A stretch of DNA of 64,000 nt from positions 124,001-188,000 of the forward strand of contig NZ_JAGGKD010000003.1 of assembly GCF_017873415.1 (NCBI RefSeq), read 5' to 3'. The notes below the pieces were generated by a model. The model was not told where the DNA came from and searched no databases. It was given only the letters and a program-made list of their open reading frames with translations. The translations under genes were made by a program, and so were the position numbers. This document shows, in pieces, positions 11,331-35,683 of this stretch; position 1 is the first letter of the stretch, and each line of letters starts with the position of its first letter. Source of the DNA: Methanolobus bombayensis. Its GTDB lineage: Archaea > Halobacteriota > Methanosarcinia > Methanosarcinales > Methanosarcinaceae.

Positions 11331-12154
11331 GTGAGCACTGGTACTCAGAAAGGAAAGGGAAGGATGAAACCTTCCGGAAGGACGGGGAAAGTATTTCCTC
11401 TCCTTTTTACGTTCCCATAGAGTGCCTTGAAATCACTGAGAACAGTAAACAACACATTACTGTGGACGTTATTGTCGAGGAAAAGTTCGAACTTTTCGTG
11501 AATAACGTTCACGTAACCACTTTTTTTGCAAGTCCCTATGAACTTGAAGAACTTGCACTGGGATTTCTCGTCTGCGAGGGATTCATTGAACCTGATACAC
11601 AGGTTGATTCCATAAAAATCGAAGAGAAATCTATTTTCTGTAAAATTGAAATTAACATTCCTGAACTGGAAGAACTAACGCATCTTGAGAGATGCGGAAC
11701 AACATCATACCGCAAAGATGTTATTAAACAGATTAATTCTGATACTAAATTCAGCACCGAGGCTATCATACACGGAGTTAGCCAGTTAAAAGAACTTGGC
11801 AGGGCATGGCACAGCACCGGAGGTGCACATACTTCTATTATCTACAATAACCAGGGAGAAATACTATTCTTCTGCGAAGATGTTGGCAGAGCATGCTCCA
11901 TGGACAAGGTTGTTGGAAAAGCCTTGATGAATGGCATCAATCTTTCTGAATGCGCTCTGGCTACTACCGGCAGACTGGCATCAACCATGGTTTCTAAAGC
12001 CATGAATGCAGGTATTCCTCTTATCTCAAGTAAAGGTGCAACCGTACGTGAGTCAGTAGAACTGGCTGAGAAAGCTGGAATGACACTTGTGGCTTTTGTG
12101 AGGGGAAAGAATCTATATGTTTATGCCGGGGAAAAGAGAGTGATTATTGATTAA
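11327..12154 (+). CDS. fdhD: FdhD family sulfurtransferase-like protein
   Basis: A 275-residue FdhD family protein. In bacteria FdhD delivers sulfur to the molybdenum site of formate dehydrogenase. Family blocks seen are PYELEELALGFLVCEGFI, TGGAHTSII, EDVGRACSMDKVVGKAL and TTGRLASTMVSKAM. The CxxC loop that carries sulfur in E. coli is reduced here to a single cysteine (C123-G-T-T). The start overlaps fwdB by four bases, so it is the last gene of the fwd operon and probably matures FwdB. Its stop overlaps the end of the convergent tubulin-operon gene by four bases. Confidence 0.85.
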   Translation: MSEHWYSERKGKDETFRKDGESISSPFYVPIECLEITENSKQHITVDVIVEEKFELFVNNVHVTTFFASPYELEELALGFLVCEGFIEPDTQVDSIKIEEKSIFCKIEINIPELEELTHLERCGTTSYRKDVIKQINSDTKFSTEAIIHGVSQLKELGRAWHSTGGAHTSIIYNNQGEILFFCEDVGRACSMDKVVGKALMNGINLSECALATTGRLASTMVSKAMNAGIPLISSKGATVRESVELAEKAGMTLVAFVRGKNLYVYAGEKRVIID

Positions 12155-13956
12155 TCACTTGTCTCAATATAGCCAACTGTTTGATTTGTGTCATTTTCAG
12201 CAGATGAATTGGTGCTTTCATTACCCATTAAGGACACCGTACTATTCGAAGCCAGACTTTGATTATCACTGCCCAACGATTCATTTTCCATTACATCATC
12301 AGAGACAACTGTTTCCGTTTGGTTCATGGAATCGTCCGTATTGCTAAAATTGTCTGAAATATTAACATTCCCATCAACCAAAGAATTATTTTCTCCAGTA
12401 AGATTAGCTAAAACAGCCATTGGACCGCCATGGGTGAACACATATGCAATACCGGCAATCAATATCATCGCCACAAGGGCATATGAAGCCATTGTCATCA
12501 TGTTCTGCTTCTTTTTCTTTTGAGCTTTTTGTTTAGCTACAACGTAATTTGTATTGAAATATCTGTCAAGGTTCTCTGCTTCATTAGTTGTCAACCTTGA
12601 AGACAGATCATGAGCTCTCAATTGCTCACTTATATAATTAACAAATATTATACCGCCAGTAGCAGGAGAACTTTTCACATTATTGCCAACAAATTTTAGC
12701 AATTCTACCAATTTATCATTGTCATAAGATGAGAGGACAGATGCTATATTTTTCCTGAATCTTTCCCCACTCTTGCCACCATATGGAAAACTCACATTAC
12801 ACAAAGCTGCCAATAATTCTTTATCTTCATTTCCATATATTCTACGAATGACATCCTTTATTACATAACTCCACAAACCTCTGTTTCTGAGAAGAACAAT
12901 ATCCAGCTTCTTTTTAACACCTGCATTTCTAATTCGCTCGAACAGACTTCTTAAAGCTTCATCCTCACCCATATAGGAAAACATGGAACTTTGGGAGGAA
13001 AGTTGTTTACTGTATAGAGCAATTATGTTAGCAACTATGGCTTCATTCGTAATTGGCATTTGTCGTATCTGAGTTGACCTTTCTTTAAATATCTGTGTCA
13101 GTATGGAAATATCATTTTTGTAAAGTTCAAACAACTTGTAAAGGGATTCACTGGTTGCAAAAATATCAAGAACATCCCATGTATAAGCTCTGAAAGCAAA
13201 GTTTTTAGTGTAAAATGAAAGACGATTTCGATCACTTACTTCCACATAGCTCTTTATATCACCTGTCTTTTCTCTGAAGACCCTTGGAAGTAACATGTAG
13301 TATTCACTGTACAGAGGAGATTGTTTCCATTTAAGAACATGCTCATCCAGTTCAAAATCCGGATTAGGTTCAATTGGACAGATGGAAATATCACTTTCAT
13401 AAGGATACTGGGAAGCCATAAATTTCAGATCGGATTCCAGAGAATTACCTACCGTTGAAAAGATACTGTTTATTAGATAAACAGAGGTAGCTGCACTGGC
13501 AGACTTTACAGAGACTTTCTCATTAGCAAGTAATTTACCATATACATAGTCAACCATGGTTGTATCAGCGGTGAGTTCATTGAACCTTGAAAAATCATTT
13601 GCGTCATATTCTTCCCAGAGACCTACAAGCCTATACTCTAATTTCTGTAAATGGGCTATCTCTGTGGAAACAGTATCGTAGAATTGCATGATAAGTGTTG
13701 ATTCATGTCCTGAGAATTCGGAATATTTTCCCACACATACAATCCTCTCTTCCCTACCACCTACTTCTTCAACCATGACACTGCATCCCAATATCAAAGT
13801 ATTGCTGTTATGCAGTAGCTCAAAATACAGAGCATTCCTCTTGGAATCTATCTGCTTTGCCAGATTACTATATTCATTAGAATATACATCCCCATCTCCA
13901 CTCAGGAGTTTACCGGTGGAATTGTAAACGTAAAATTCAGAAACCAAACTTGGCAA
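12151..13956 (-). CDS. Unknown tail-anchored protein of the tubulin-like operon
   Basis: A 601-residue protein I cannot assign to a family. Residues 1 to about 480 look cytoplasmic, with mixed helix and strand. A basic stretch (QKKKKQ) precedes one membrane segment at about 489-508. The last 84 residues are outside, rich in Asn, Ser, Thr and Asp, and hold 12 N-x-S/T sequons. The start is a TTG with a strong GGAGGG site six to twelve bases upstream, and it overlaps the preceding GTPase gene by 20 bases. It is the last gene of the four-gene operon. It may be an adaptor linking the tubulin-like protein or GTPase to the envelope; this is inference. Confidence 0.8.
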   Translation of the reverse strand: MPSLVSEFYVYNSTGKLLSGDGDVYSNEYSNLAKQIDSKRNALYFELLHNSNTLILGCSVMVEEVGGREERIVCVGKYSEFSGHESTLIMQFYDTVSTEIAHLQKLEYRLVGLWEEYDANDFSRFNELTADTTMVDYVYGKLLANEKVSVKSASAATSVYLINSIFSTVGNSLESDLKFMASQYPYESDISICPIEPNPDFELDEHVLKWKQSPLYSEYYMLLPRVFREKTGDIKSYVEVSDRNRLSFYTKNFAFRAYTWDVLDIFATSESLYKLFELYKNDISILTQIFKERSTQIRQMPITNEAIVANIIALYSKQLSSQSSMFSYMGEDEALRSLFERIRNAGVKKKLDIVLLRNRGLWSYVIKDVIRRIYGNEDKELLAALCNVSFPYGGKSGERFRKNIASVLSSYDNDKLVELLKFVGNNVKSSPATGGIIFVNYISEQLRAHDLSSRLTTNEAENLDRYFNTNYVVAKQKAQKKKKQNMMTMASYALVAMILIAGIAYVFTHGGPMAVLANLTGENNSLVDGNVNISDNFSNTDDSMNQTETVVSDDVMENESLGSDNQSLASNSTVSLMGNESTNSSAENDTNQTVGYIETSD

Positions 13957-15388
13957 TTTGTTCCACCCTCCATGGATAAATGTTCTTTATAGCTTCTTCC
14001 TGCTGGTCAACACTCTTCAGTGCATTTGCACTTACAGCATAGAAATGAATAGGTCCTTTTGTAGCCCTGTGTTTTATCTCTTTGAAAGTATCGATCTCAG
14101 TCAGCATTTCAAAAATTTCTTTTTCAATGTTAAGAGCATCCTTTGAAGTATCAATCACATCGTTAATGTTCTTTATCTTATCAGCTTTTGTGACTACAAT
14201 AGCATAGGACTTACCATCCCCAAGCATTTCCATTATCCTTGAGTACTGACCAAACAAGCGCATCAGATGGCTTGCCCCATCCTCATGATATGAAACAATA
14301 TGTTCACCATCTACAAGGAAAACAACTTTTCCCGCATTTTCAAGTTTCTTATATACATGTGCCAGAACCAATTGATCCAGAATATAAACGATCTCATCAG
14401 GATATTTTTCTTTCAATTCTTTAATGAACTCATGGTCACCGACCTTCTCACTAAAAGTCTCTTTATCAATCTCAGGAATCTGATTTTCTATTTCAAGAAT
14501 AGCCTTGAAATAACCATCTTTTGTAAGGTTTTCAGTAAACTCACCACCATAATCTACAAAAGAGAATTCTATTGGTTTGATAGACTTTTTTCCCGTCAGA
14601 GTGTACATGGTGAGATCAGTTTTCTGATTACTTTTTGGCTGCCTTCCATTCTTTAGTTCAGCCAGCATGTTCTCTATTCTGTAATAATCCTCCTCCCTTG
14701 ATGAAGAGAGGATAGTTTCACTCCTGCGACCATTGTAGTAGTGTACGAACTGATTGTACAGAGCAAGCAACAACAATGTTTTACCGGATTTTGAAGGACC
14801 ATAGACAAAAACATCCGACGCCTTGATCCCATGTACGTATTTCATTAACAATGTATGAAGTATCATCAGAGCAAAGAAACTCAGCATTATCATGAAAAGA
14901 TCGTTTGAGCCTGTAAGAGCATATTGAGGAATGTCCCTCATATCCTCTTCAGAAACCAGTTGAATGAATATTGCAAACAGGTAAACCATCATTCCCACAA
15001 AGAAGAGCTTTAAAAAGAAGCGTGTTCTTTTTGCAACAACGTCAAAGCGATTGTTCATGAATGCATGCAATATGAAACCTACCCCGGCAATTAAACCCGG
15101 AACCAGGCCATCAAGTCGCAAAATATTATCCTGTACCCAGAAAAAGTAAAGATAAGGTAAAAAGGCTGCAAGTAATAGTTCCCCTCCAAATCTGGATCTT
15201 TCCTCGAACAACATTCCCATTCCACTTGAAATGAACAAAGCTATGAAAAAACTCAATAATATAGCTATATACCACACCAGAGATGAGACTATCTGCTCAC
15301 TTGTTGCAAGCAGAAATCCTGTTGATAAGGCTAAACACAACAAAAAAATAACCGGGTTGAATAGGTTTAGTTTCCCTCTTACCCTCAT
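13937..15388 (-). CDS. Polytopic membrane protein with C-terminal P-loop GTPase domain
   Basis: About 483 residues. The first ~185 hold five or six hydrophobic helices, with charged residues between them. A GTPase domain follows at once, with G1 YGPSKSGKTLLL, G3-like FVDYGGEF, G4 VTKADK and a G5-like VSANAL. It is not an SRP, Era or dynamin type that I recognise. It best fits the 'distinct GTPase' found beside FtsZ-like proteins in other prokaryotes. I choose the ATG at 15388, preceded by AAGGTGG, over the GTG at 15430, which has no ribosome-binding site. The gene lies between the tubulin-like gene and the tail-anchored gene and overlaps the latter. Confidence 0.82.
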   Translation of the reverse strand: MRVRGKLNLFNPVIFLLCLALSTGFLLATSEQIVSSLVWYIAILLSFFIALFISSGMGMLFEERSRFGGELLLAAFLPYLYFFWVQDNILRLDGLVPGLIAGVGFILHAFMNNRFDVVAKRTRFFLKLFFVGMMVYLFAIFIQLVSEEDMRDIPQYALTGSNDLFMIMLSFFALMILHTLLMKYVHGIKASDVFVYGPSKSGKTLLLLALYNQFVHYYNGRRSETILSSSREEDYYRIENMLAELKNGRQPKSNQKTDLTMYTLTGKKSIKPIEFSFVDYGGEFTENLTKDGYFKAILEIENQIPEIDKETFSEKVGDHEFIKELKEKYPDEIVYILDQLVLAHVYKKLENAGKVVFLVDGEHIVSYHEDGASHLMRLFGQYSRIMEMLGDGKSYAIVVTKADKIKNINDVIDTSKDALNIEKEIFEMLTEIDTFKEIKHRATKGPIHFYAVSANALKSVDQQEEAIKNIYPWRVEQIAKFGF

Positions 15389-15426
15389 AGTTCCACCTTT
15401 TTTATTTAAGTTTGCCAGCCGAATAT

Positions 15427-18400
15427 TCACTCAAGTGCTTCACGAAGGGTTTTGGTCTCGTAAAGGTCCTTTATTACAGGAACAACATCTTCTCCGGCTC
15501 TTTCAGAGTTCGCCAGCTCACCGGCATACTTCACATCAAGCAACTTCTTTCTGGTAATATACTCACCATCCTGCATTTTCAGTACATGGTGCAGGATATT
15601 GTTACTACTTTGTTCGTATATCTTCCAGTAACCTCCGCCCGAGGTCAGTGGAGAGATGTTGTCAAGGAAACTTGTAGCTGCAAGGAGAGTAAGAGTTACC
15701 TCCCATGGTTTGGCATGTGAATGAGTTATTACACGGGCATCCTGTGAACTCTTCAGTGACATTATAGCATTGATATCTGTGGATATCGTACTGTTCACAA
15801 CAGACGATGAAATATATGAGGAACGTGAACCAATCACAAGACCCACTTTTCCGAAAGTCCACTTTTCAGTGGTGCTTATAGGAATCATCTGATTGTGTAT
15901 TCCCAGTTTATAATTCTCAAGCAACGAAGGATATGTAGCCTTCACTTCGGAAAGCAGGTTGTTAAGCTCATTCATTCCGTTGTCATCGTTGTCAAGGTTT
16001 GTAAGGTCAGACATCTCGCCAATAAGGGACAGTATCTTCGGATTGATCTCTCCAACCTTTGTCCTGTAAAGACTCTTATCAGTCTTATTCTTGGATTTTG
16101 TCTTTTCATTGATAGAAGACATGTGATGATAGAACGACTCATAGTGTTTGTTGAGGTCTCTTCTGGAGCTGAATGTCTTTTCATGGAGATCTTCAGCATG
16201 GTCCATCATATCTGCAAGAGAGCGTTTTTCACCAATCTCTTCTTTGACTGCTTCAATATCCTCATTAATGGATTTTGATTTCAGGAAATATCCTTCCTTT
16301 TTAAGATATATTTCTGTCAGGAATTCTCTTAAAGAGCCTATCAGCTCACTTCTCTCTGTCTGGTCAAAAATGGAATCTATCCTGTCATAATTAAGTGAAT
16401 CTTTACCTGCATCGCCTAACAATGAATTAATAGTCTGGTTTTTGATATCTGAAGCTTTTTTGTGCAGGCCTTTATTCAGGAAATCATCAGGTACATAGAA
16501 TTCAAAAGGACTGTTGATCTGTATGTTCCAGTATTTGGCATTGGATTTGATATAATCCTCTTTTTCCTTTTTCATTGCCTCATACTTTCTAATCTTTTTC
16601 TTTTTGTCACCCTTGATGAATCCAATAATTCCTCCACCTTTTTCCTGCTTCTTCTTTTCAGATTCATAGAAATAATACAGTGCTATGGATTCTATCAGAT
16701 TGATCAGGCCATCAAAACTGTCTCCTATTTCGTAGGAAATATCTTTGATCTCCTGCTGCATTGCAGAAACATTGGAAGCCCTGAGCCAGCTACTTTTATC
16801 TCTGGCCTTTATATCACCACTCTTAACCTGGGAAATGAATTCCTCAATTTTCATTTTCAGGTCTCTCTCCTTTTCATCCAGTGACTGGACTTTAAGATTA
16901 ATAGTGAGATACTGATCTATCTCTTTCTCATTGTCATAGAGCCGTTGCTCCGCTTTTTTGACAACCTGGTCTCTAAGCAGTTCTGCCCCGGCACTTTCCT
17001 CTTCTTTTTCAAGGATCTGATTTTCAAGCTCCTTTATCTCATCTTTCAGCTTTTTGGCCTTGACATTCATGTTGCTGATGGTAGAGGACATATTCTGATT
17101 GCCTTTTAACATATCAATAAGAGTTGACCTTGCGGATTCCTCAGTTACACCGGACACTTTCCTGAAAAGATGAGCAGTTTCTTCCAGAACCTGAATACTT
17201 TCAGGTATAAGATTGGCCAGTTTCTTATCATTTTCATCGGTAAGTTCGCTTGGCTCAACACTCTGTGAACCGGCCTTAACCTTGGACAGATACTCGACCA
17301 TATCATCAAAAGTAGTTATTTTATCGATCTGCATTTCATCCGGAATCTGATTTGCGATGAAATATTCGATGGTATCCACACTCTTATAATTGAGCAGGCT
17401 ACCAATCTCATGCTTGAGAACATTTTCGATATTCCTGTATTCTTTCTTGATATATTCAAAATTTTCTTTTGTAGGTGCAGTTTCCTTAAAAGAATACTGG
17501 TTTTCCAAAAATGAAGATACTTGCTGATTTAGTTCTTTCCTTGAAATTGTTATCATTTCAAGGGAGTTGATAATTTCTTCATACTGATTTTTAAGTCCAC
17601 GGAGATCCTCTATCGGGTATTCGATAACATGAGAATTGGCAAAAATGAATGATGAGAATGAACCTTTAACATCACTAATATTAATGTCACCGGTTTCCAC
17701 GTGGAAGAAATTAGTAAACACATTGGGGAACATTGCATCAAACTCATGAACCTCTGCACGAGCCTCTTCACCCTTCTTGTATCCTGTGGGACCCAGAGAT
17801 GTGACGATAACATTGTTGAACAGCCTCTCGGTCATATTGAGATACTCAAGCTCTGTGAGAGCAATAGACGCATTAAGCTGTTCTTTTTCTCCTTCCTGCG
17901 TTGTCGGGAGAACAACAAAAAGACATAGTTGTGTGGAATCTCCTTTAAATGAGCGTATATAGCGTGCAAGGTCAATGAACATACCAGAACCTGTGCCACC
18001 CCCTAGACCTACAACGATTGCCACACTTCCCCTGCTTGAAAAAGTTGGGAATCCACTTGATTCGCCCTCCGTTATGACTTTGTAGAATATAGCTTTGGAA
18101 ATGGCTCTTCTGCGGTGCACTCCACCACCGAAATCATCCATTGCAAGATGATCGATCTTCAGAAGATCCTCAAAAAGAATACCATCTTCCGTGTCATCGT
18201 TGAGCCACCAGGTTTTCACTTTAGGTTCAGACCTTTTGTTCTTTACCTTCTCAGCAATTTCCATGCTTGCAAGATCAGGCACCTGGCTTATGTTTGCAAG
18301 AGATGGCAAATAATAGAACTTACTTTCAATGCTGCCCTGTGCTCCACATTCGACTATTTTATCTTTGAGCTGTGAGATGCGTTTCTCATCGCCTTCTTTC

Positions 18401-18579
18401 TCATTTGCATCGGCGTCCATAGTATATACTTTCAGACGTCTTCCATCAGCAGAATAGTGTTTCAGGAACCAGTCATTATCGCATATTTCCATTGTCAGTC
18501 TTTTTCCACAACCGCCAACACCAACTATTGTCATATCAGTAGGTAATTGAAGTGGTGGTATGATCTTTTCGTTACTCAT
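15427..18579 (-). CDS. Large tubulin/FtsZ-superfamily protein
   Basis: A 1050-residue cytoplasmic protein with a tubulin/FtsZ-type GTPase domain. The N-terminal loop IVGVGGCGKR (18-27), DADANE (55-60) and the signature GGGTGSG (193-199) are all in the expected order. It is over twice the length of FtsZ. Residues from about 490 to 620 are predicted coiled coil (heptad-like KLKDEIKELENQILEKEEE), and a second charged helical stretch follows. A conserved-looking C-terminal domain resumes near 930. This fits the Tubulin_2-like or FtsZl-1 group. It is probably not the cell-division FtsZ. It overlaps the upstream gene by ATGA. Polymerisation and GTP hydrolysis are inferred only. Confidence 0.88.
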   Translation of the reverse strand: MSNEKIIPPLQLPTDMTIVGVGGCGKRLTMEICDNDWFLKHYSADGRRLKVYTMDADANEKEGDEKRISQLKDKIVECGAQGSIESKFYYLPSLANISQVPDLASMEIAEKVKNKRSEPKVKTWWLNDDTEDGILFEDLLKIDHLAMDDFGGGVHRRRAISKAIFYKVITEGESSGFPTFSSRGSVAIVVGLGGGTGSGMFIDLARYIRSFKGDSTQLCLFVVLPTTQEGEKEQLNASIALTELEYLNMTERLFNNVIVTSLGPTGYKKGEEARAEVHEFDAMFPNVFTNFFHVETGDINISDVKGSFSSFIFANSHVIEYPIEDLRGLKNQYEEIINSLEMITISRKELNQQVSSFLENQYSFKETAPTKENFEYIKKEYRNIENVLKHEIGSLLNYKSVDTIEYFIANQIPDEMQIDKITTFDDMVEYLSKVKAGSQSVEPSELTDENDKKLANLIPESIQVLEETAHLFRKVSGVTEESARSTLIDMLKGNQNMSSTISNMNVKAKKLKDEIKELENQILEKEEESAGAELLRDQVVKKAEQRLYDNEKEIDQYLTINLKVQSLDEKERDLKMKIEEFISQVKSGDIKARDKSSWLRASNVSAMQQEIKDISYEIGDSFDGLINLIESIALYYFYESEKKKQEKGGGIIGFIKGDKKKKIRKYEAMKKEKEDYIKSNAKYWNIQINSPFEFYVPDDFLNKGLHKKASDIKNQTINSLLGDAGKDSLNYDRIDSIFDQTERSELIGSLREFLTEIYLKKEGYFLKSKSINEDIEAVKEEIGEKRSLADMMDHAEDLHEKTFSSRRDLNKHYESFYHHMSSINEKTKSKNKTDKSLYRTKVGEINPKILSLIGEMSDLTNLDNDDNGMNELNNLLSEVKATYPSLLENYKLGIHNQMIPISTTEKWTFGKVGLVIGSRSSYISSSVVNSTISTDINAIMSLKSSQDARVITHSHAKPWEVTLTLLAATSFLDNISPLTSGGGYWKIYEQSSNNILHHVLKMQDGEYITRKKLLDVKYAGELANSERAGEDVVPVIKDLYETKTLREALE

Positions 18580-19313
18580 ATGTCATCATCCTCGTAGTCA
18601 TCATCACGATTACCTAACCGGATACCGATTATCGTACCAATGATAAGAGCAAATATAATTCCACCTGCTGCCAGGTACAAAGAGATCTCTGGCCCCTCTT
18701 CCTGAGAGTTCAGATGATCTGCAAGTTCATTGGCTTCATGAACAAGTCCTTTGTCAAAAAGATCTGTGAGATAGTTCCTGAAGAAAGGATCGTCAATTGA
18801 GTCCATTTTACCTGTAAAAGATTCAATCTCAGGTACGTTTATTGTAAAGACCCTGGTGTCACTGTCCTTCAGACTGTTCTTCTCATCATCGAGAAGATTA
18901 AAACGATAGTAAGCGTAACCTGTTCTCTTTTCATCGAGTTTTATGAGAGTTACTTTATCAGTCTGGACAACTTCCCTGACAATAGGAACTTTACCCTGTA
19001 TGTGAACGAGGACTTCTTCATCACTGTCATTCAGGTTCAGGACATAGTTGTTGGAATTGCTGGTAATATTGAATTCCGTAAAGTTGTAAAGAGGATTATT
19101 TCCATATGCTTCAAGATCGGTCTCGAACGAAATATAATCTGCAGACTGAGGAATACTGGAGATTGTCAGATAATATTCAACGATATCTCCTTCCCTGGCC
19201 TCATCAGGCAGATCACCTTCGATGTTTACATCTACTGCAGAAACGTTCGAAATAAGAGAAATAAGAATAAAGAAACAAAGTATAGTTTCGACTAATATAT
19301 CGCGTGTTTTCAT
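18576..19313 (-). CDS. Secreted-domain single-pass membrane protein of the tubulin-like operon
   Basis: A 245-residue protein with a signal peptide (hydrophobic core ILCFFILISLISNVSA). A beta-rich external region of ~185 residues (LPDEAREGDIVEYYLTI recalls CARDB or other Ig-like surface domains) is followed by one membrane segment at about 214-234. The cytoplasmic tail is short and very acidic (DDDYEDDDI). It is the first gene of the operon and its stop overlaps the tubulin-like start. The topology suggests an external sensor or anchor whose tail could contact the cytoplasmic tubulin-like protein. No specific family was recognised. Confidence 0.8.
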   Translation of the reverse strand: MKTRDILVETILCFFILISLISNVSAVDVNIEGDLPDEAREGDIVEYYLTISSIPQSADYISFETDLEAYGNNPLYNFTEFNITSNSNNYVLNLNDSDEEVLVHIQGKVPIVREVVQTDKVTLIKLDEKRTGYAYYRFNLLDDEKNSLKDSDTRVFTINVPEIESFTGKMDSIDDPFFRNYLTDLFDKGLVHEANELADHLNSQEEGPEISLYLAAGGIIFALIIGTIIGIRLGNRDDDYEDDDI

Positions 19314-19710
19314 GATTCAACCCCAAAATAATGGCTTATTGCAACAATTCCAATTCACACCAACCTCTAATTGAAATTATTGTCCCACAAGTCAATAATT
19401 TTGTACATAAACTCAATCATTTAACTATATAATCTTTTTGATTTTATTGTGATTTTTAAATGATATTAATAAAATATTACAGACTAATAAAAAAGAAAAC
19501 AGGATTTAATACTTTATTCATGCCAAATAAATTGATAAAAGCACATAAATATGAAATAATTTTGTTGTACCGATTATAACATATCTTTATAGCATATTTT
19601 CAGCATCAAAATATCAAAACCATTATATCCCATAACCACACTACTACCCCTGCAACGTAACACAAATACAGTTGAGAATAATACTTCATACAAAAAAGAA
19701 GGTTTATATC
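19314..19710. promoter_or_regulatory. Divergent intergenic region: tubulin-like operon and cfbA promoters
   Basis: This 397-base AT-rich gap separates the leftward tubulin-like operon from the rightward cfbA. On the minus strand a clear TATA element (GATTATATAG) lies at 19425-19434. This predicts a transcript start near 19400 and an ~85-base leader ending in a GGGG site before the ATG at 19313. For cfbA a TATA-like CTTTATAG lies near 19584. No coding region or strong repeat was seen. Confidence 0.5.
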
Positions 19711-28854: not shown

Positions 28855-30177
28855 TTAAGTGTTTACAGGATTTCTTTTTATAAATAAGTCTTTCATGGAT
28901 TTAAGTACAGAATCAAGGATGTCTTTTGAACCTGAGGTGTTTTTGTCTTCATCGGAACTGGAATCTTCAATATAAGAAGTCGTAGAATCACCACCCATAT
29001 CAATGACAACCATGTCATCCTCAGAACTTGTATTTACCTTTCCGGTTATTGCAAAATTACCAAAAGCATTGGTTGTTGAAACAAAAGTGATGTTGGAGTG
29101 TGAATTTTCTGACGCATTTGATCCTGCAATAGTCCTGGCAGGGAATATTTTCCATCCATGTCCACTGAACAGGTTCAAACGTATGGAATCAATATCAATA
29201 TTGCTATCATCTATCCATTTCTGACTGACATTGAAGAAAATACGGGTATCACTTATCTTGTTATCAAGACCTGTTCTATCAGGATTGATATTTATATAAT
29301 AGTAGACCTCAGCATCCGGTTCTTCAGATACAAAAGATGAACGGTCATTCAATACTTCAAGTGACATGCGTACATAGCCTGCATTGACAGATGATGTAAA
29401 TTCCAGAGAACTTATAGGATTACTCTTTTCCGTAAATGAAAATGCAGTGAGCACGTTTTTGTTGACCACCTGCATGTTCACTTCCTTTACAAGAATATTT
29501 TTGTAATCCTCACCGGAAGAAACAGAACCTGAAGAACTGCCACCTCCGCTTCCACCTGAAATTATCTGGGAAGGAGTTGGTGTGGCAACCCAGTACCACT
29601 GATTCGATATACTTCCATTAGGATTTGAAACATGGACCTCAACACTGTAATTCCCCGTTTCAGAAAGATCAGGTACATAACTGGCATTACAAACATCAGA
29701 ATAGCTGCTTATCAGATAATCATCAAGATACCAGAGCACATCAGACTTCTCACTTACATTTAACCGGAAAACAGGCTCACGGTCAAGTCTTGAACTAATA
29801 ACAGTATCATCAGGTGAAAAACTGACATTGAAAGCCTGCAGTACATTTACAGTCCAGGTTTTACGCCGGGTCTCTGTTGACCCGGACACAACTGCTGTTA
29901 AATTATAAGTTGCAGCTTCATCCTCAGATAAAGAATATGATGAAAAGGTCGATGAGAGACTCTGTTTTACTACTACATCATTAAGCAACCACACAATATC
30001 CGAAGCCTCTGTTGTAGAAACTGAAAATCCCAGTGAACCTGTAGTATAAACCGACCGATACTGTGTAACCGGATCGAATGTCACCGTATCAACTGCAGAA
30101 GCAGGAACTACCAGGAATGAAATGAAAAGAAAAGATACAAAGAACAGAGTTTTAATATTGAGTTTGTTAACACCCAA
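28855..30177 (-). CDS. Secreted PGF-pre-PGF domain surface protein
   Basis: About 440 residues with a signal peptide (LFFVSFLFISFLVVPASA) and two Ig/PKD-like beta domains (about 30-200). A glycine/serine linker (GGSGGGSSSG) follows, then a ~165-residue PGF-pre-PGF domain (NVLTAFSFTEKSNPISSLEFTS to FGNFAITG). That domain usually precedes an archaeosortase signal, but no PGF-CTERM or membrane segment follows here. Many N-x-S/T sequons suggest glycosylation. I choose the TTG at 30177, eight bases after a GAGG, because the upstream ATG at 30225 lies inside the TrmB gene and would add a non-signal extension. Confidence 0.78.
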   Translation of the reverse strand: MGVNKLNIKTLFFVSFLFISFLVVPASAVDTVTFDPVTQYRSVYTTGSLGFSVSTTEASDIVWLLNDVVVKQSLSSTFSSYSLSEDEAATYNLTAVVSGSTETRRKTWTVNVLQAFNVSFSPDDTVISSRLDREPVFRLNVSEKSDVLWYLDDYLISSYSDVCNASYVPDLSETGNYSVEVHVSNPNGSISNQWYWVATPTPSQIISGGSGGGSSSGSVSSGEDYKNILVKEVNMQVVNKNVLTAFSFTEKSNPISSLEFTSSVNAGYVRMSLEVLNDRSSFVSEEPDAEVYYYININPDRTGLDNKISDTRIFFNVSQKWIDDSNIDIDSIRLNLFSGHGWKIFPARTIAGSNASENSHSNITFVSTTNAFGNFAITGKVNTSSEDDMVVIDMGGDSTTSYIEDSSSDEDKNTSGSKDILDSVLKSMKDLFIKRNPVNT

Positions 30178-30187
30178 GATCTGAGCC

Positions 30188-30985
30188 TCACAGCATATAT
30201 TTTTCAGATAGTTCCCATTTAGCACTTAACAGATGGGAAATTGTGGCAGAGAACTCTGCACCATTTGTCCATACTGCAGAGAGATCGGCATCTCCTTCTC
30301 CATCTTTCAGTATGTCAACAAGCATTTCCGAATTATCAACAACAATTACAAAACTCTTGAATCCAGGTTGGGCATTCTCAAGGGAATTTACACGTACAGT
30401 AGCCAGAGGAATCAAATTATTCATTTTCTTTGCTTCATCCTCACAGGAACTGATAATTCTGACAGAAACACCTTCATCACCTGATTTTTTGTTCAGAATG
30501 CCTATTATAGTAGTATAATCTTTTTTGAGGGATGCATGCTTCTCTGCAATTGTCCTGAAAGGAGTTGAAGAGGCCAGTATCAGGATATCTTTTTTGGCAC
30601 CTTCAAGCATCTGGATGACTTTACAGGTAACATTCCTGACACCACTAATACTCCAGATCAGTTCCTCTGTTCTTTCACTTGCAGATTCACCATATATTTC
30701 ATTCAGTTTTTCAAAGGCAATATCACATTCCTCTGCATAATCATTCTTCAGCTTGGAAAGAGCATCTTCCGGCGGAATACATCGATAACGCATTGGTTTT
30801 GTGTTCTGGAACTCAATGATTCCTCTTTTCTCCAGCTTTTTCAAAGCACCATAAATTGCAGAATTAGGTACGCCGGAATCATCATGTAATTTTGAAACCG
30901 TAGCGTTCCCATTTCTGACTAGAGCCACGTAAACCTTTGCTTCATAAGAAGTGAAACCGAGATTCTGAAGAGATGTGATAATCAT
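30188..30985 (-). CDS. TrmB-family transcriptional regulator
   Basis: A 265-residue TrmB-type regulator. The N-terminal winged helix is at residues 1-75 (LQNLGFTSYEAKVYVALVRNGNATVSKLHDDSGVPNSAIYGALKKLEKRGIIEF). The C-terminal effector region (about 105-255) has the phospholipase D-like TrmB_C pattern (ILILASSTPFRTIAEKH). It lies inside the envelope operon between two surface-protein genes, so it may control that operon. The ligand is unknown; not all TrmB proteins bind sugars. Confidence 0.85.
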   Translation of the reverse strand: MIITSLQNLGFTSYEAKVYVALVRNGNATVSKLHDDSGVPNSAIYGALKKLEKRGIIEFQNTKPMRYRCIPPEDALSKLKNDYAEECDIAFEKLNEIYGESASERTEELIWSISGVRNVTCKVIQMLEGAKKDILILASSTPFRTIAEKHASLKKDYTTIIGILNKKSGDEGVSVRIISSCEDEAKKMNNLIPLATVRVNSLENAQPGFKSFVIVVDNSEMLVDILKDGEGDADLSAVWTNGAEFSATISHLLSAKWELSEKYML

Positions 30986-31023
30986 GAATATTGCCCCTGA
31001 AAATTATAAAAAATAGAAGAAGA

Positions 31024-32130
31024 TCATTTATCTTCTTCTTTTTTCGCAAGGAATTTCTTAGCACCCATTGCAGCAACAACTACAACAATGAGAACTACAA
31101 AAACACCCATATATACTCCTGAACCAGAGTCAGATGAACCTGTCGGAAGAACTTCAGTTGTTATCTTCACAGTATCGGAAGTCTGGCTATGACCATCCAT
31201 ATCTTCATATTTTATCTCACTGTTAATGGCATATGTCTTTGCGACACCGGTCTCGTCAACCCTTATCTTGAAAACAGCTTCTGCCGACTCCCCGGGTTCA
31301 AGAGAGCCAATGAAGGACTGGTCATCTGTTGTACTGAAAGGATCATCAGCACTTATCCTCACAGTTGCATCTTTTACAGCTTCCTCTCCAACGTTCTTGT
31401 AGACAACACGGATAATTCCCTCTTCTCCAAGAACAAGTTCTCCGGTGGCATTTGTGACTTCAAAATCAGCTTCTTCATCAACAATGACACTTACCTGGTC
31501 CATTTGCTGGCCCACTGCATACCAGAGACCTACTTCCATATTAGTGATACCAAGATCAGTTTCGTTGTCACCATTTATCTGCACGTTTTCCTGATAACCA
31601 TAGTAAAGTGTCAGGTTTAGTGGATACTCACCGGCAGGTGCGTTCTTTGATAACTCAATATTGAATTCAAGTGGATCAGATGTCTGTTCACCTGATGCAA
31701 GGGTTCCTGCTTCCTGAGCACCTGACTTTACTCTGATATTCGGATCATCGGAAGTCAGGATAGCAACAATACCAATAGCTGTTGTTCTCTGAGCCTCATA
31801 GCCCATTTCAGTTTGCTGTATTTTCTGGTCAAGCTCTGATACAGGATCATCGTCCTCTTCAGACTTGAAACCGGTAATAACACCTTTATTCATGAGGTTG
31901 ATCTTAAGGGTAACCTCATCACCCCTTGAATATTCGTTGTCCCCTACAAGGGTGGCAGATACATCCGGGCCACCGTAAACTGTGTAATAGTTCTCATCAA
32001 AATTGAAGAAATCAGGTAATTCCAGATCCATTGTGGACATAGTATCATCAGCGCCCACCGGTAATACAAAGAGTAAGCCGAGGATCAATGATACTGAAAC
32101 CACCGTTTTAAAGTTAATATTCCTAATCAT
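31024..32130 (-). CDS. CARDB-like (COG1361) surface protein with C-terminal anchor
   Basis: About 368 residues with a signal peptide (VVSVSLILGLLFVLPVGA). An external region contains two beta-sandwich CARDB/S-layer-like domains (NEYSRGDEVTLKINLMNKGVI and GELVLGEEGIIRVVYKNVGEEAVKDATVRI). One membrane segment near 340-360 and a lysine-rich cytoplasmic end (KKFLAKKEEDK) follow. I prefer the ATG at 32130, six bases after GAGGG, over 32136, which would overlap that site. It is paralogous to the gene just upstream, and the pair follows an MMPL transporter, as is common in methanogens. Confidence 0.82.
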   Translation of the reverse strand: MIRNINFKTVVSVSLILGLLFVLPVGADDTMSTMDLELPDFFNFDENYYTVYGGPDVSATLVGDNEYSRGDEVTLKINLMNKGVITGFKSEEDDDPVSELDQKIQQTEMGYEAQRTTAIGIVAILTSDDPNIRVKSGAQEAGTLASGEQTSDPLEFNIELSKNAPAGEYPLNLTLYYGYQENVQINGDNETDLGITNMEVGLWYAVGQQMDQVSVIVDEEADFEVTNATGELVLGEEGIIRVVYKNVGEEAVKDATVRISADDPFSTTDDQSFIGSLEPGESAEAVFKIRVDETGVAKTYAINSEIKYEDMDGHSQTSDTVKITTEVLPTGSSDSGSGVYMGVFVVLIVVVVAAMGAKKFLAKKEEDK

Positions 32131-32141
32131 AAGCATCCCTC

Positions 32142-33248
32142 TTAATTGTCATCAGACTCGTTTTTCCTTTTACTTTTAACAATCAATACTACTATTATTA
32201 CGAAAATTCCGGCAAGAGCAAGACCTGTTACATTTATCTGTCTTTCAGGTTCCTCCAGTGGCAGGTTTATTATCGTGCCTGAAGAGAAAGTATCTTCACC
32301 GTCTTCATCGATATATTTGATCTCACTATCGATACCATAACTCTTTGCCAGTGTGCCTGTGTCAGAACTTATTATGAAAGTAGCAGTTCTGCTTTCACCG
32401 GGTTCCATTGTTCCAAGACTCTTGGTTGAGCGTGTGGTGCTAAGAGGCTTCATTGCAATAATTCTGGCAATAGCATCTTCTGCAGTAAGCTCACCGGTAT
32501 TTGTGTATGTAACATTCACAACACTTGTACCACCTGAAACAAGAGATCCGTTAACATTTGTTATCTCGAATTTTGCTTCGGGTTTAACTATAATTGGTAT
32601 CTTAAGAGTTGTTTCCACATTGGTGTAAAAACTTGCATGATCAAGATCAGGCTTACCAAGTCTTATGGCTTCACCTGACGTCATTCTGACATCGCTCTGA
32701 TACTCATAACTCAGAGGCAACTCCAGAACATAAACACCTGCAGGAATATCCTCTGATAGGGTTATGGTGAACTCCATTGGATGTTCCGGCAAAACTCCCG
32801 GATATAGTGCTTCCAGAGTATGACTGCTTGTTTCAGGATCAACATCTACCATATCAATTGACGATACAAGGCTCGCCTTTAAACCATATGCGATTGTCCT
32901 CTGAGTCTCATACTCCAGTTCTGTCAGGGAGAGCTCATGATCGTATTCTGATGTGCCGACGCCCTGGTCAGCCTTGATACCATATATAACACCACGGTTT
33001 GCAAGGACAACCTTAAGAGTTGCAGTTTCTCCTCGTTCAAGTTCTGTGTCGCCCAGCACTGAGGCGGATATATCCGGCTCACCGTAGGACTTGTAGAAAT
33101 TATTCGTGTATTCATATGTAGGAGGCAGGTATTCTTTCGCAGCTACAGAGGGTACTGAAGCTACAAAAGCAATAGAAAGCAGAATACATACCACCATAAG
33201 AATAGTACATTTTTTAAAACCACTTATATTACCATATCTCACATTCAT
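32142..33248 (-). CDS. CARDB-like (COG1361) surface protein, paralogue
   Basis: A 368-residue paralogue of the downstream gene, with a signal peptide (ILMVVCILLSIAFVASVPSVAA) and the shared pattern YEYTNNFYKSYGEPDISASVLGDTELERGETATLKV. A second beta domain (GSLVSGGTSVVNVTYTNTGELTAEDA) precedes the membrane anchor near 340-358 and a basic end (KSKRKNESDDN). Its ATG overlaps the MMPL stop codon (ATGA). The pair may form external subunits of the MMPL transporter, an inference from fixed gene order and coupled translation. Confidence 0.82.
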   Translation of the reverse strand: MNVRYGNISGFKKCTILMVVCILLSIAFVASVPSVAAKEYLPPTYEYTNNFYKSYGEPDISASVLGDTELERGETATLKVVLANRGVIYGIKADQGVGTSEYDHELSLTELEYETQRTIAYGLKASLVSSIDMVDVDPETSSHTLEALYPGVLPEHPMEFTITLSEDIPAGVYVLELPLSYEYQSDVRMTSGEAIRLGKPDLDHASFYTNVETTLKIPIIVKPEAKFEITNVNGSLVSGGTSVVNVTYTNTGELTAEDAIARIIAMKPLSTTRSTKSLGTMEPGESRTATFIISSDTGTLAKSYGIDSEIKYIDEDGEDTFSSGTIINLPLEEPERQINVTGLALAGIFVIIVVLIVKSKRKNESDDN

Positions 33249-35629
33249 TGGGTAATTGCCTCCTGAATGCTTTTTAAAATACTATTTGCACCTGAACCGG
33301 AAGTGTTGTGCGATTCAATAAAGTGCCTCCTCTTTTCCCTGTATTTATCCAGAGTAACTATAACCGGAGGGAAAATCACAAAAGTTGCAAGCAATGCAAG
33401 TATAACATCCATTACTGTGATAACTCCGAAATTGCTGGTTATTGAGAATGGGGAAGCTATGAGTGCAGAGAAACCAAACACAGTTGTAAGACCTGATGTA
33501 ACAATTGCCTTTCCTATCTTAACACTTGCTTCCTGCATGGCTTCTTCAGGACCGGCACCTTTGTCCCTTTCCTCAAAATAACGTTCCATCATAAGAATGG
33601 CATATTCCGAACCAACACCAAGGATCAATGCGCCAAGTGTTGCAGTCATCGGTGTGTACTCCATTCCTGTATAATACATGATCCCACCGGACCATCCCAC
33701 AACTACAGCCATGGTCAGAACAGGCGTAAGAGCCTTGAGAAGATCTCTGTAAATTACAAGGAGACCGGCAAATACCAGAACAATACCAAGCGTTGTCATA
33801 AAGACTCTGCCTGAAGTCAGAGCAGATATTACCCCTACAAAAACCATGGAGTTACCGGTTATAGTGATATGCACACCCGGAGGGGGAGCCATCCAGAGAA
33901 GATCCTCTTTCACAATGTCAGAAAGAGCTTCTATACCTTCAAGACCAAGTTCACTCATTGCATTACCGATGTTTAAGTTCAGAAGGGTTATTGTAGTTCC
34001 TTCAAGGTATGCCTCTCTTTCTCTTTCAGAAAGCTGATCATATATCTCCTGTATTTTCTCAGAGCTATCAGGAATCTCACCGGAGTTTGCTTCTTTGACT
34101 ACATCGACTATACTTGACGAGCCCTGTATATGGCTTCTGTCAGCAACTTCATGTTCAGAGAACTCATCGATCCATTCCAGAAGCTCAGGATCAGCATTAT
34201 TATCTGTCTTAATGATCAGATTTAACTGGTCATCCCCTCCGAGAATCTCCCCCATATGATTCAGATCAAGAAGCGCAGGCATATCCTGCGGAACAAAGGT
34301 TTCAGTATCAGTCTGGATACCTACAAGATTATCTACATAAAGACCACCAACACAGAGAAGACCTGCGATGGATAGAACAAGAACAGGGTTTTTCATTGAA
34401 AACGTAGAAATTGCCTTAAGGCTCTTTTCAAGAAAATCAGGTTCTTGTTCTTCTACAATAGTTACTGCAGCATGAGTTTCATGATGTGAAGATTTCTTTT
34501 TAAAACCAAGTCTTCCGAGTATGTTCTTTTTAGAGAGTATATCAAATCCGTAAATTACAGTGACTCCCAGGAAAAGAGAGGAAATGAAACACATCACTAT
34601 TCCTATCATCAGAAGCTTTCCAAAGTCCTGGATCATTGGAACTGTGGACGTGAACAATGAGAAAAAGCCAAGAGCTGTGATGATAAGAGCTATTAACACT
34701 GCAGGTCCGGTATGTTTGATAGTGTCAATTACAGCTTCTTCTTCGGTTTCACCACGTGCAAGTTCTTCTTCTATCCTGTTATGGAACTGAATGGCATAAT
34801 CAATACCAAGTCCTATTAGAACCGGAAATGCGGACATTGATACCATTGACATCGGTATATCAAGAAAACCCATTGCACCAAAAGTGAAGATAATACCTAC
34901 CAGCACTACTGGCAGAGGAAGTAATCTCCACCTGACATGCCTGAACACCAGATATAGTACTATGACCATCAGAACAACAGACAATGAAAGAAGTATACCC
35001 ATACTTGTATTCATCTCATCATTCATTGCTATCATGAATGCAGGTTCTCCGGTGACGATTACGTTATAATCAGCAGGAAAATTTGCAAGCTCTATTGAAG
35101 TTTCTGTTTCCCTGAGAATCTCTTCCTTTGTGGAATCTGATGCAGTACCTTCCATGATAACAGACATTACAGCATGTGTGTCATCAGGCATCAGGACATC
35201 AGGCATTGTTGAAGCAATTATCTCATCGATGGTTGCTGAATCATCCGGGATGGCACTTCTGCCAGTCATCTGATAATTAACTTCTTTAATAACAGTCGAT
35301 GGAGAAGTCACTTCCACCACACCTGGTATGTTCTGGACAGAAAGATAAGCTCTGTCAAGAGCTTTCAAAAGCTCTGGTTCCGTGACATCACTACCTTCAA
35401 CCATTACTACAATGGACTCGGTACCAAAAAGGTTCAGATACAGGTGGCCAAAATTCTGATACAATTTTGAATTTTTATCGACAAAGGTATCCGTACCTGA
35501 AGCCATTCCGATTAACTGAGCACCCTGAAAAGAGATAATTATCAGAAGCAGTGCGATCATAATTATTGGAATTGTATTGTTTTCTATGAAAACACCCAGC
35601 TTTTGAAAGATGCTTTTTATGATTAACAC
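33245..35629 (-). CDS. MMPL/RND-superfamily transporter (HAE3-like)
   Basis: About 794 residues with the two-fold RND/MMPL layout: one N-terminal helix, a large external loop, five helices, then the same again. Markers are FGAMGFLDIPMSMVSMSAFPVLIGLGIDYAIQFHNRIEEE in the first half and TATLGALILGVGSEYAILMMERYFEE in the second. Such proteins move lipids or hydrophobic compounds using ion gradients. The start is uncertain. The TTG at 35683 is upstream of the predicted transcript start. The clear AAGGAG (35634-35629) points to GTG 35629, ATC 35623 or ATA 35620. It is the first gene of the six-gene envelope operon. Confidence 0.85.
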   Translation of the reverse strand: MLIIKSIFQKLGVFIENNTIPIIMIALLLIIISFQGAQLIGMASGTDTFVDKNSKLYQNFGHLYLNLFGTESIVVMVEGSDVTEPELLKALDRAYLSVQNIPGVVEVTSPSTVIKEVNYQMTGRSAIPDDSATIDEIIASTMPDVLMPDDTHAVMSVIMEGTASDSTKEEILRETETSIELANFPADYNVIVTGEPAFMIAMNDEMNTSMGILLSLSVVLMVIVLYLVFRHVRWRLLPLPVVLVGIIFTFGAMGFLDIPMSMVSMSAFPVLIGLGIDYAIQFHNRIEEELARGETEEEAVIDTIKHTGPAVLIALIITALGFFSLFTSTVPMIQDFGKLLMIGIVMCFISSLFLGVTVIYGFDILSKKNILGRLGFKKKSSHHETHAAVTIVEEQEPDFLEKSLKAISTFSMKNPVLVLSIAGLLCVGGLYVDNLVGIQTDTETFVPQDMPALLDLNHMGEILGGDDQLNLIIKTDNNADPELLEWIDEFSEHEVADRSHIQGSSSIVDVVKEANSGEIPDSSEKIQEIYDQLSEREREAYLEGTTITLLNLNIGNAMSELGLEGIEALSDIVKEDLLWMAPPPGVHITITGNSMVFVGVISALTSGRVFMTTLGIVLVFAGLLVIYRDLLKALTPVLTMAVVVGWSGGIMYYTGMEYTPMTATLGALILGVGSEYAILMMERYFEERDKGAGPEEAMQEASVKIGKAIVTSGLTTVFGFSALIASPFSITSNFGVITVMDVILALLATFVIFPPVIVTLDKYREKRRHFIESHNTSGSGANSILKSIQEAITQ

Positions 35630-35683
35630 TCCTTGTGATTTATTATTATTACAAAAAAACTCTGCATGAGTTGTTTTTAACAA

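Follow-up and report, generated by a model that had tools for sequence, protein, structure and literature searches.

The four genes and their products

The window analysed here, a stretch of 64,000 nucleotides of Methanolobus bombayensis DNA (NZ_JAGGKD010000003.1), carries at positions 12151–19313 four minus-strand open reading frames that overlap or nearly abut, as an earlier sequence-only reading had described. We numbered the genes such that gene 4 (18576–19313) is the first to be transcribed and gene 1 (12151–13956) the last. Gene 4 encodes a 245-residue protein with a signal peptide, a beta-rich ectodomain, a transmembrane (TM) segment at about residue 213, and a short acidic cytoplasmic tail (DDDYEDDDI), in agreement with the surface protein proposed previously. 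It is followed by the gene for a tubulin/FtsZ-superfamily protein of the FtsZl1 type (15427–18579), the 1050 residues of which comprise an N-terminal GTP-binding domain, a long coiled coil, and conserved C-terminal blocks. The third gene (13937–15388) encodes a membrane-anchored P-loop GTPase of the DO-GTPase2 type, in which about five TM segments precede the motifs GPSKSGKT, DYGGE, and TKAD. The 601-residue product of gene 1 consists of an alpha/beta N-terminal domain (residues ~1–210), helical repeats (~217–470), a TM segment (~483–509), and an extracellular, sequon-rich tail.

The overlaps measure 4 nt (ATGA) between gene 4 and the tubulin gene and 20 nt between the GTPase gene and gene 1. 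The gap between the tubulin gene and the GTPase gene amounts to 38 nt when the GTPase start is set at 15388. Although the GTPase frame is open from a GTG at 15430 (13937–15430, 497 aa), the ATG at 15388 is probably the true start, because it is preceded by GGTGG and the GTPase relatives begin with MRVRG. Upstream of gene 4, on the minus strand, the sequence contains a putative archaeal BRE/TATA promoter element, AAAAAGATTATATAGTT (19423–19439). Because four congeners have this block, slightly altered, ahead of the first gene of the operon, a single promoter is likely to serve all four genes. As expected for an archaeal host, scans for sigma-70 promoters and terminators yielded chance-level results only. 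The neighbours of the operon resemble housekeeping genes. Elsewhere in the window, the minus strand of 28855–35683 encodes several predicted secreted or membrane proteins as well as an ORF resembling a TrmB-type regulator.

The 1050-residue protein matched the Pfam family Tubulin_2 (2.1e-13; 50.7 bits vs. a cut-off of 27), and when a 27-member profile was compared with the PDB, Haloferax CetZ1 (4b46) was the best solved relative (1.1e-4). The GGGTGSG motif at residues 193–199, already noticed in the sequence-only reading, corresponds to the T4 loop. In the alignment of 27 homologues, five of the seven positions of this motif never vary and its threonine hardly does. Full or near invariance was also seen for the T1 loop (GG.GK) and for a T5-like EG..E motif, and it covers most of the T4 loop. 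The AlphaFold2 model of the protein was poor (mean pLDDT 50.5), because the underlying alignment had three rows. With this low-confidence model, Foldseek returned FtsZ as the best match, with gamma-tubulin, Bacillus subtilis FtsZ, and CetZ2 among the next; no E-value was below 0.001. Long helices at residues ~481–587 were modelled with a pLDDT near 80, and region 505–650 of the profile matched coiled-coil proteins in the PDB search; past residue ~794, the pLDDT dropped below 50. Both the coiled coil and the C-terminal blocks belong to the conserved parts of the protein. The tubulin fold, the absence of which had been named as a possible refutation, is thus backed by Pfam, by the PDB profile, and by Foldseek with a low-confidence model. 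On the basis of these matches, we assign the protein to the tubulin/FtsZ superfamily and, within it, to FtsZl1. Because the same genome harbours three further FtsZ/tubulin genes, the tubulin of the four-gene unit is accessory. Viral contigs scanned with the tubulin profile contained no relative.

The GTPase combines its N-terminal TM segments with a C-terminal P-loop domain that matched Pfam DO-GTPase2 (PF19993) with 3.6e-6 and 27.3 bits vs. a cut-off of 27. The same family was matched by 15 of 32 homologues. All three nucleotide motifs are intact, including the glutamate of DYGGE in Walker B. The previous description as a membrane protein fused to a P-loop GTPase therefore holds, and by its domain match and motifs the protein is classed as a DO-GTPase. 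Two haloarchaeal-type loci (L063 and L065) possess two GTPase paralogues next to the tubulin gene, one of them with a degenerate P-loop; these pairs recall the paired copies behind the name DO-GTPase.

The two further transmembrane proteins

The gene 4 product belongs to no Pfam family, and its homologues gave only scattered weak matches. For the ectodomain, these were weak Ig-like matches only, and the PDB profile search produced chance matches. The helical segment ahead of the TM segment is strongly conserved. The short tail is acidic in Methanolobus and many relatives, but its acidity is not kept in Methanomicrobiales.

In the gene 1 product, the ~94 residues following the TM segment hold 12 N-x-S/T sequons, compared to 3.9 expected from composition, and an excess of sequons was found in the tails of all seven other homologues tested. 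Across the family, sequon density rises from 0.5 per 100 residues in the N-terminal region to 6.9 in the tail, and most homologues carry positive charge on the N side of the TM segment. Because the tail is rich in sequons and the N side of the membrane span is positive, the protein is predicted to be oriented N-in/C-out. The sequence-only reading had described it as tail-anchored, that is, with a TM segment within ~30 residues of the C-terminus. This topology is ruled out by the ~94 residues that follow the TM segment. One haloarchaeal homologue has carboxypeptidase-regulatory (Ig-like) repeats in its outer part.

Gene 1 likewise matched no Pfam family, with only scattered weak matches among 23 homologues. 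In its AlphaFold2 model (pLDDT 73.7, three-row alignment), the elements are arranged in a longin-like order, after which come an alpha/beta part and the helical repeats. The four best Foldseek matches of this model were DENN proteins, with non-significant E-values of 0.02–0.04 and low whole-chain TM-scores, and sequence searches did not support a longin/DENN relationship. A longin/DENN-like fold is thus a possible reading of the model and the freshest lead on this protein. Two other candidates were rejected: profile–profile comparison did not find homology to Roadblock, and no GAP1 family was detected in the 23 homologues. At one locus, gene 1 is directly followed by a 103-aa ORF (L021:3354–3665) in which a portion of the gene 1 N-terminal domain recurs with 49% identity over 49 aa; this may be a partial duplication.

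Distribution among archaea and within Methanolobus

We searched 53 loci from the phylum with profiles of the four families. After removal of two duplicate loci, 41 distinct loci with a long-form tubulin gene were counted, of which 39 carry the GTPase gene and 32 carry gene 4 as the first gene; all four genes were detected by profile at 21 non-redundant loci. The divergence distances of the four families at these 21 loci correlate with r = 0.93–0.98, which is expected of any linked genes and is thus not proof of contact. Gene 1 diverges faster than its partners. At loci without a profile-detected gene 1, a related domain may form the beginning of the protein encoded after the GTPase gene, as seen for five such loci (hhalign P 2.8e-5 over 173 columns). 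Ten loci with shorter Tubulin_2 proteins (~720–910 aa) contain none of the three partners. A chance arrangement is excluded, because the gene order is kept in distant genomes. We conclude from this survey that the four genes constitute one conserved unit; the sequence-only reading had made its proposal dependent on the genes being kept together in related genomes, and they are. The operon, its conservation, the GTP-binding motifs, and the membrane topology can be regarded as established at the sequence level.

An identical four-gene order was observed at locus L067, from a genome that we take to be Methanosarcina acetivorans C2A, and a control search found Tubulin_2 in M. acetivorans. At four Methanomicrobial-type loci (L083, L086, L098, and L081), the operon continues with the gene for a secreted PEGA-domain TM protein, to which L083 adds a Ser/Thr protein kinase. 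A different Tubulin_2 context was seen at L070–L073: the gene for a tubulin of 860–910 aa has that of a two-TM protein of ~350 aa downstream and, at three of these four loci, that of a ~300-aa protein upstream whose N-terminus bears an FtsZ-like glycine motif. At L068:6017–11589, an orphan gene for a long-form tubulin, lacking the GTPase gene, lies 534 bp downstream of a caspase (Peptidase_C14)–FGE-sulfatase fusion gene. Caspase and FGE-sulfatase domains are both named among the effectors of conflict systems (Kaur et al., 2020, PMC7159879). The repeat-bearing proteins of Borgs, the giant elements found in methane-oxidising archaea, include PEGA proteins and a Tubulin_2 protein (PMC9879509). 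Therefore, the Tubulin_2 family also travels on extrachromosomal elements.

In five Methanolobus genomes, including that of M. bombayensis, the operon is located on the cbiX side of fdhD. In its place, six congeners have only ~100 bp between fdhD and cbiX. The operon site of one congener (L130:2870–4540) encodes a secreted protein of 458 aa that contains DGGYIVAG...W-type repeats; because this ORF is unrelated to the operon, the extra DNA is not a decayed copy of it. On a tree of the two flanking proteins, the pattern of presence and absence needs at least three changes. Repeated loss would be the simpler reading, because all five carriers share one site. Replacement by recombination is possible, since the operon tree joins (100/100) two carriers that the flank tree separates at 87/94. 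Its repeated absence within the genus indicates that the unit is dispensable.

A proposed surface-coupled scaffold and its known relatives

The reading we favour, with a probability of roughly one half, is that the operon encodes a GTP-controlled, tubulin-like scaffold beneath the membrane, with a link to the cell surface and with the DO-GTPase as its switch, itself controlled by gene 1. The cytosolic tubulin-superfamily protein with its long coiled coil would assemble in a GTP-dependent manner on the inner face of the membrane, where gene 4, with its ectodomain outside and its short tail inside, and the membrane-embedded DO-GTPase would hold it. Gene 1, with a cytosolic regulatory part, one TM segment, and a presumably glycosylated outer stalk, would inform the GTPase about the condition of the cell surface or S-layer; the GTPase would then start or stop scaffold assembly, so that the envelope is reshaped or braced. 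We infer the assembly, the mutual binding, the direction of signalling, and the membrane-shaping outcome.

The model draws on the fixed gene order in distant genomes together with the correlated family divergence, and on the tubulin and DO-GTPase assignments with their intact nucleotide motifs. It is further consistent with the fact that three of the four proteins cross the membrane with domains on both sides, that Ig-like and PEGA surface domains and a Ser/Thr kinase occur in addition at related loci, and that the three other FtsZ/tubulin genes leave the tubulin-like protein free for another job. The loss of tail acidity from gene 4 in Methanomicrobiales and the dispensability of the unit within the genus argue against it. 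Of the nucleotide-driven membrane machine suggested by the sequence-only reading, the conserved unit of a tubulin, a P-loop GTPase, and two TM partners has stood; the machine itself is plausible.

A further point against the scaffold is that the T7 loop, which serves hydrolysis in FtsZ and tubulin, is not recognisable in the FtsZl1 family, and neither is H7 (Makarova and Koonin, 2010, PMC2875224). This would fit a large protein that acts as a non-polymerising, GTP-sensing coiled-coil tether between membrane complexes and has kept the tubulin nucleotide fold, as would the conservation of the coiled coil and the C-terminal blocks. However, the (nearly) invariant T1, T4, and T5-like loops are what is expected if nucleotide-dependent assembly or turnover matters, and we consider such a tether unlikely.

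The operon might instead be a conflict (immunity) system like those proposed for bacterial DO-GTPase/GAP1/tubulin operons, in which an invader or damage to the membrane, once sensed, would trigger tubulin assembly, and the invader would be sequestered or the cell arrested. The systems for which Kaur et al. (2020, PMC7159879) proposed a conflict role combine a DO-GTPase, a coiled-coil tubulin, and a GAP1 protein encoded downstream, which may end in a TM segment and outer domains. The DO-GTPase, the coiled-coil tubulin, and the membrane-spanning downstream partner match this arrangement, the patchy presence at one site within the genus and the faster divergence of gene 1 fit an arms race, and the orphan tubulin gene of L068 follows a caspase–FGE gene. 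On the other hand, GAP1-N2 and GAP1-M were found in 0 of 112 family genomes (GAP1-N1 was looked for through Pfam only), in line with the lack of GAP1 in the gene 1 family. No variable effector domain was detected, the same four genes recurring across the loci. There was no PADLOC match, the neighbours are of the housekeeping type, and viral relatives were not found, which makes a conflict role improbable.

Returning to the scaffold, a bolder version would be a complete membrane switch module in ordinary, non-Asgard methanogens, in which one operon encodes a TM GTPase, a surface-reading longin/DENN-like TM regulator, and a tubulin-superfamily polymer. We regard this version as quite doubtful. 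If true, it would represent surface-to-cytoskeleton signalling built from parts otherwise known in eukaryotic membrane traffic, and a genuinely longin/DENN-like gene 1 regulator would bear on the origin of eukaryotic switch–regulator pairs. The strand and helix order of the gene 1 model and its best Foldseek matches resemble longin/DENN regulators of small GTPases such as DENND1A; the partner in the operon is, however, a TM DO-GTPase and not a Rab. A compact four-gene unit, dispensable in one methanogen genus, with natural presence and absence at one site and a copy in the genetically tractable M. acetivorans, offers a clean place for testing the role of FtsZl1 proteins. A literature search retrieved no experimental work on any of the four proteins or on FtsZl1 function, and NCBIfam and PADLOC scans of the four proteins gave nothing useful.

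Archaeal CetZ and FtsZ belong to the same superfamily as the 1050-residue protein, with CetZ1 (4b46) as its best solved relative by profile, but they have ~360–400 aa and lack both the coiled coil and a dedicated GTPase partner. The DO-GTPase/tubulin systems of the GAP1-N2 type share with the operon the DO-GTPase, the coiled-coil tubulin, a downstream TM protein with an outer part, and a beta-rich membrane protein, and some haloarchaeal relatives also have the two GTPase paralogues. In contrast to these systems, the archaeal unit has a fixed content, without zinc ribbons, vWA, an FNIII protein, or a variable effector, and it is not securely assigned to the GAP1 class.

The closest counterpart is the FtsZl1 system, known since 2010; few tubulin relatives are as divergent as its tubulin-like proteins. 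Makarova and Koonin (2010, PMC2875224) defined FtsZl1 by an N-terminal FtsZ-like domain, a coiled coil, and a mostly helical C-terminal domain, drew partner families A1–A2, and predicted membrane remodelling. The M. bombayensis protein has the same order of a GGGTGSG-containing FtsZ-like domain, coiled coil, and C-terminal region, and the operon shares the adjoining diverged P-loop GTPase, membrane-associated in archaea, and the transmembrane partners. The sequence-only reading had recognised the FtsZ-like protein and the distinct GTPase as common to both, which the Tubulin_2 and DO-GTPase2 matches corroborate. In contrast to the FtsZl1 system, no vWA or OmpA protein was detected in the operon, and no vWA domain appeared when the four proteins, along with selected neighbours from relatives, were scanned against Pfam; in the 2010 study, vWA proteins occur in the operons of the majority, but not all, of the FtsZl1 members. 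The TM partners are set out here by topology and conservation and are not matched to A1–A2. The suggestion that the operon might be an undescribed archaeal form is not upheld, as the 2010 alignment already included M. acetivorans and Methanospirillum hungatei, and its archaeal GTPases were implied to be membrane-associated, in contrast to the bacterial ones. To this system, the present analysis adds a corrected gene 1 topology, the context boundary between long and short forms, presence and absence at one site, and a weak but testable longin/DENN lead. We conclude that the operon is an archaeal form of the FtsZl1 system first described in 2010, and thus a further instance of a known, still uncharacterised system rather than an undescribed machine.
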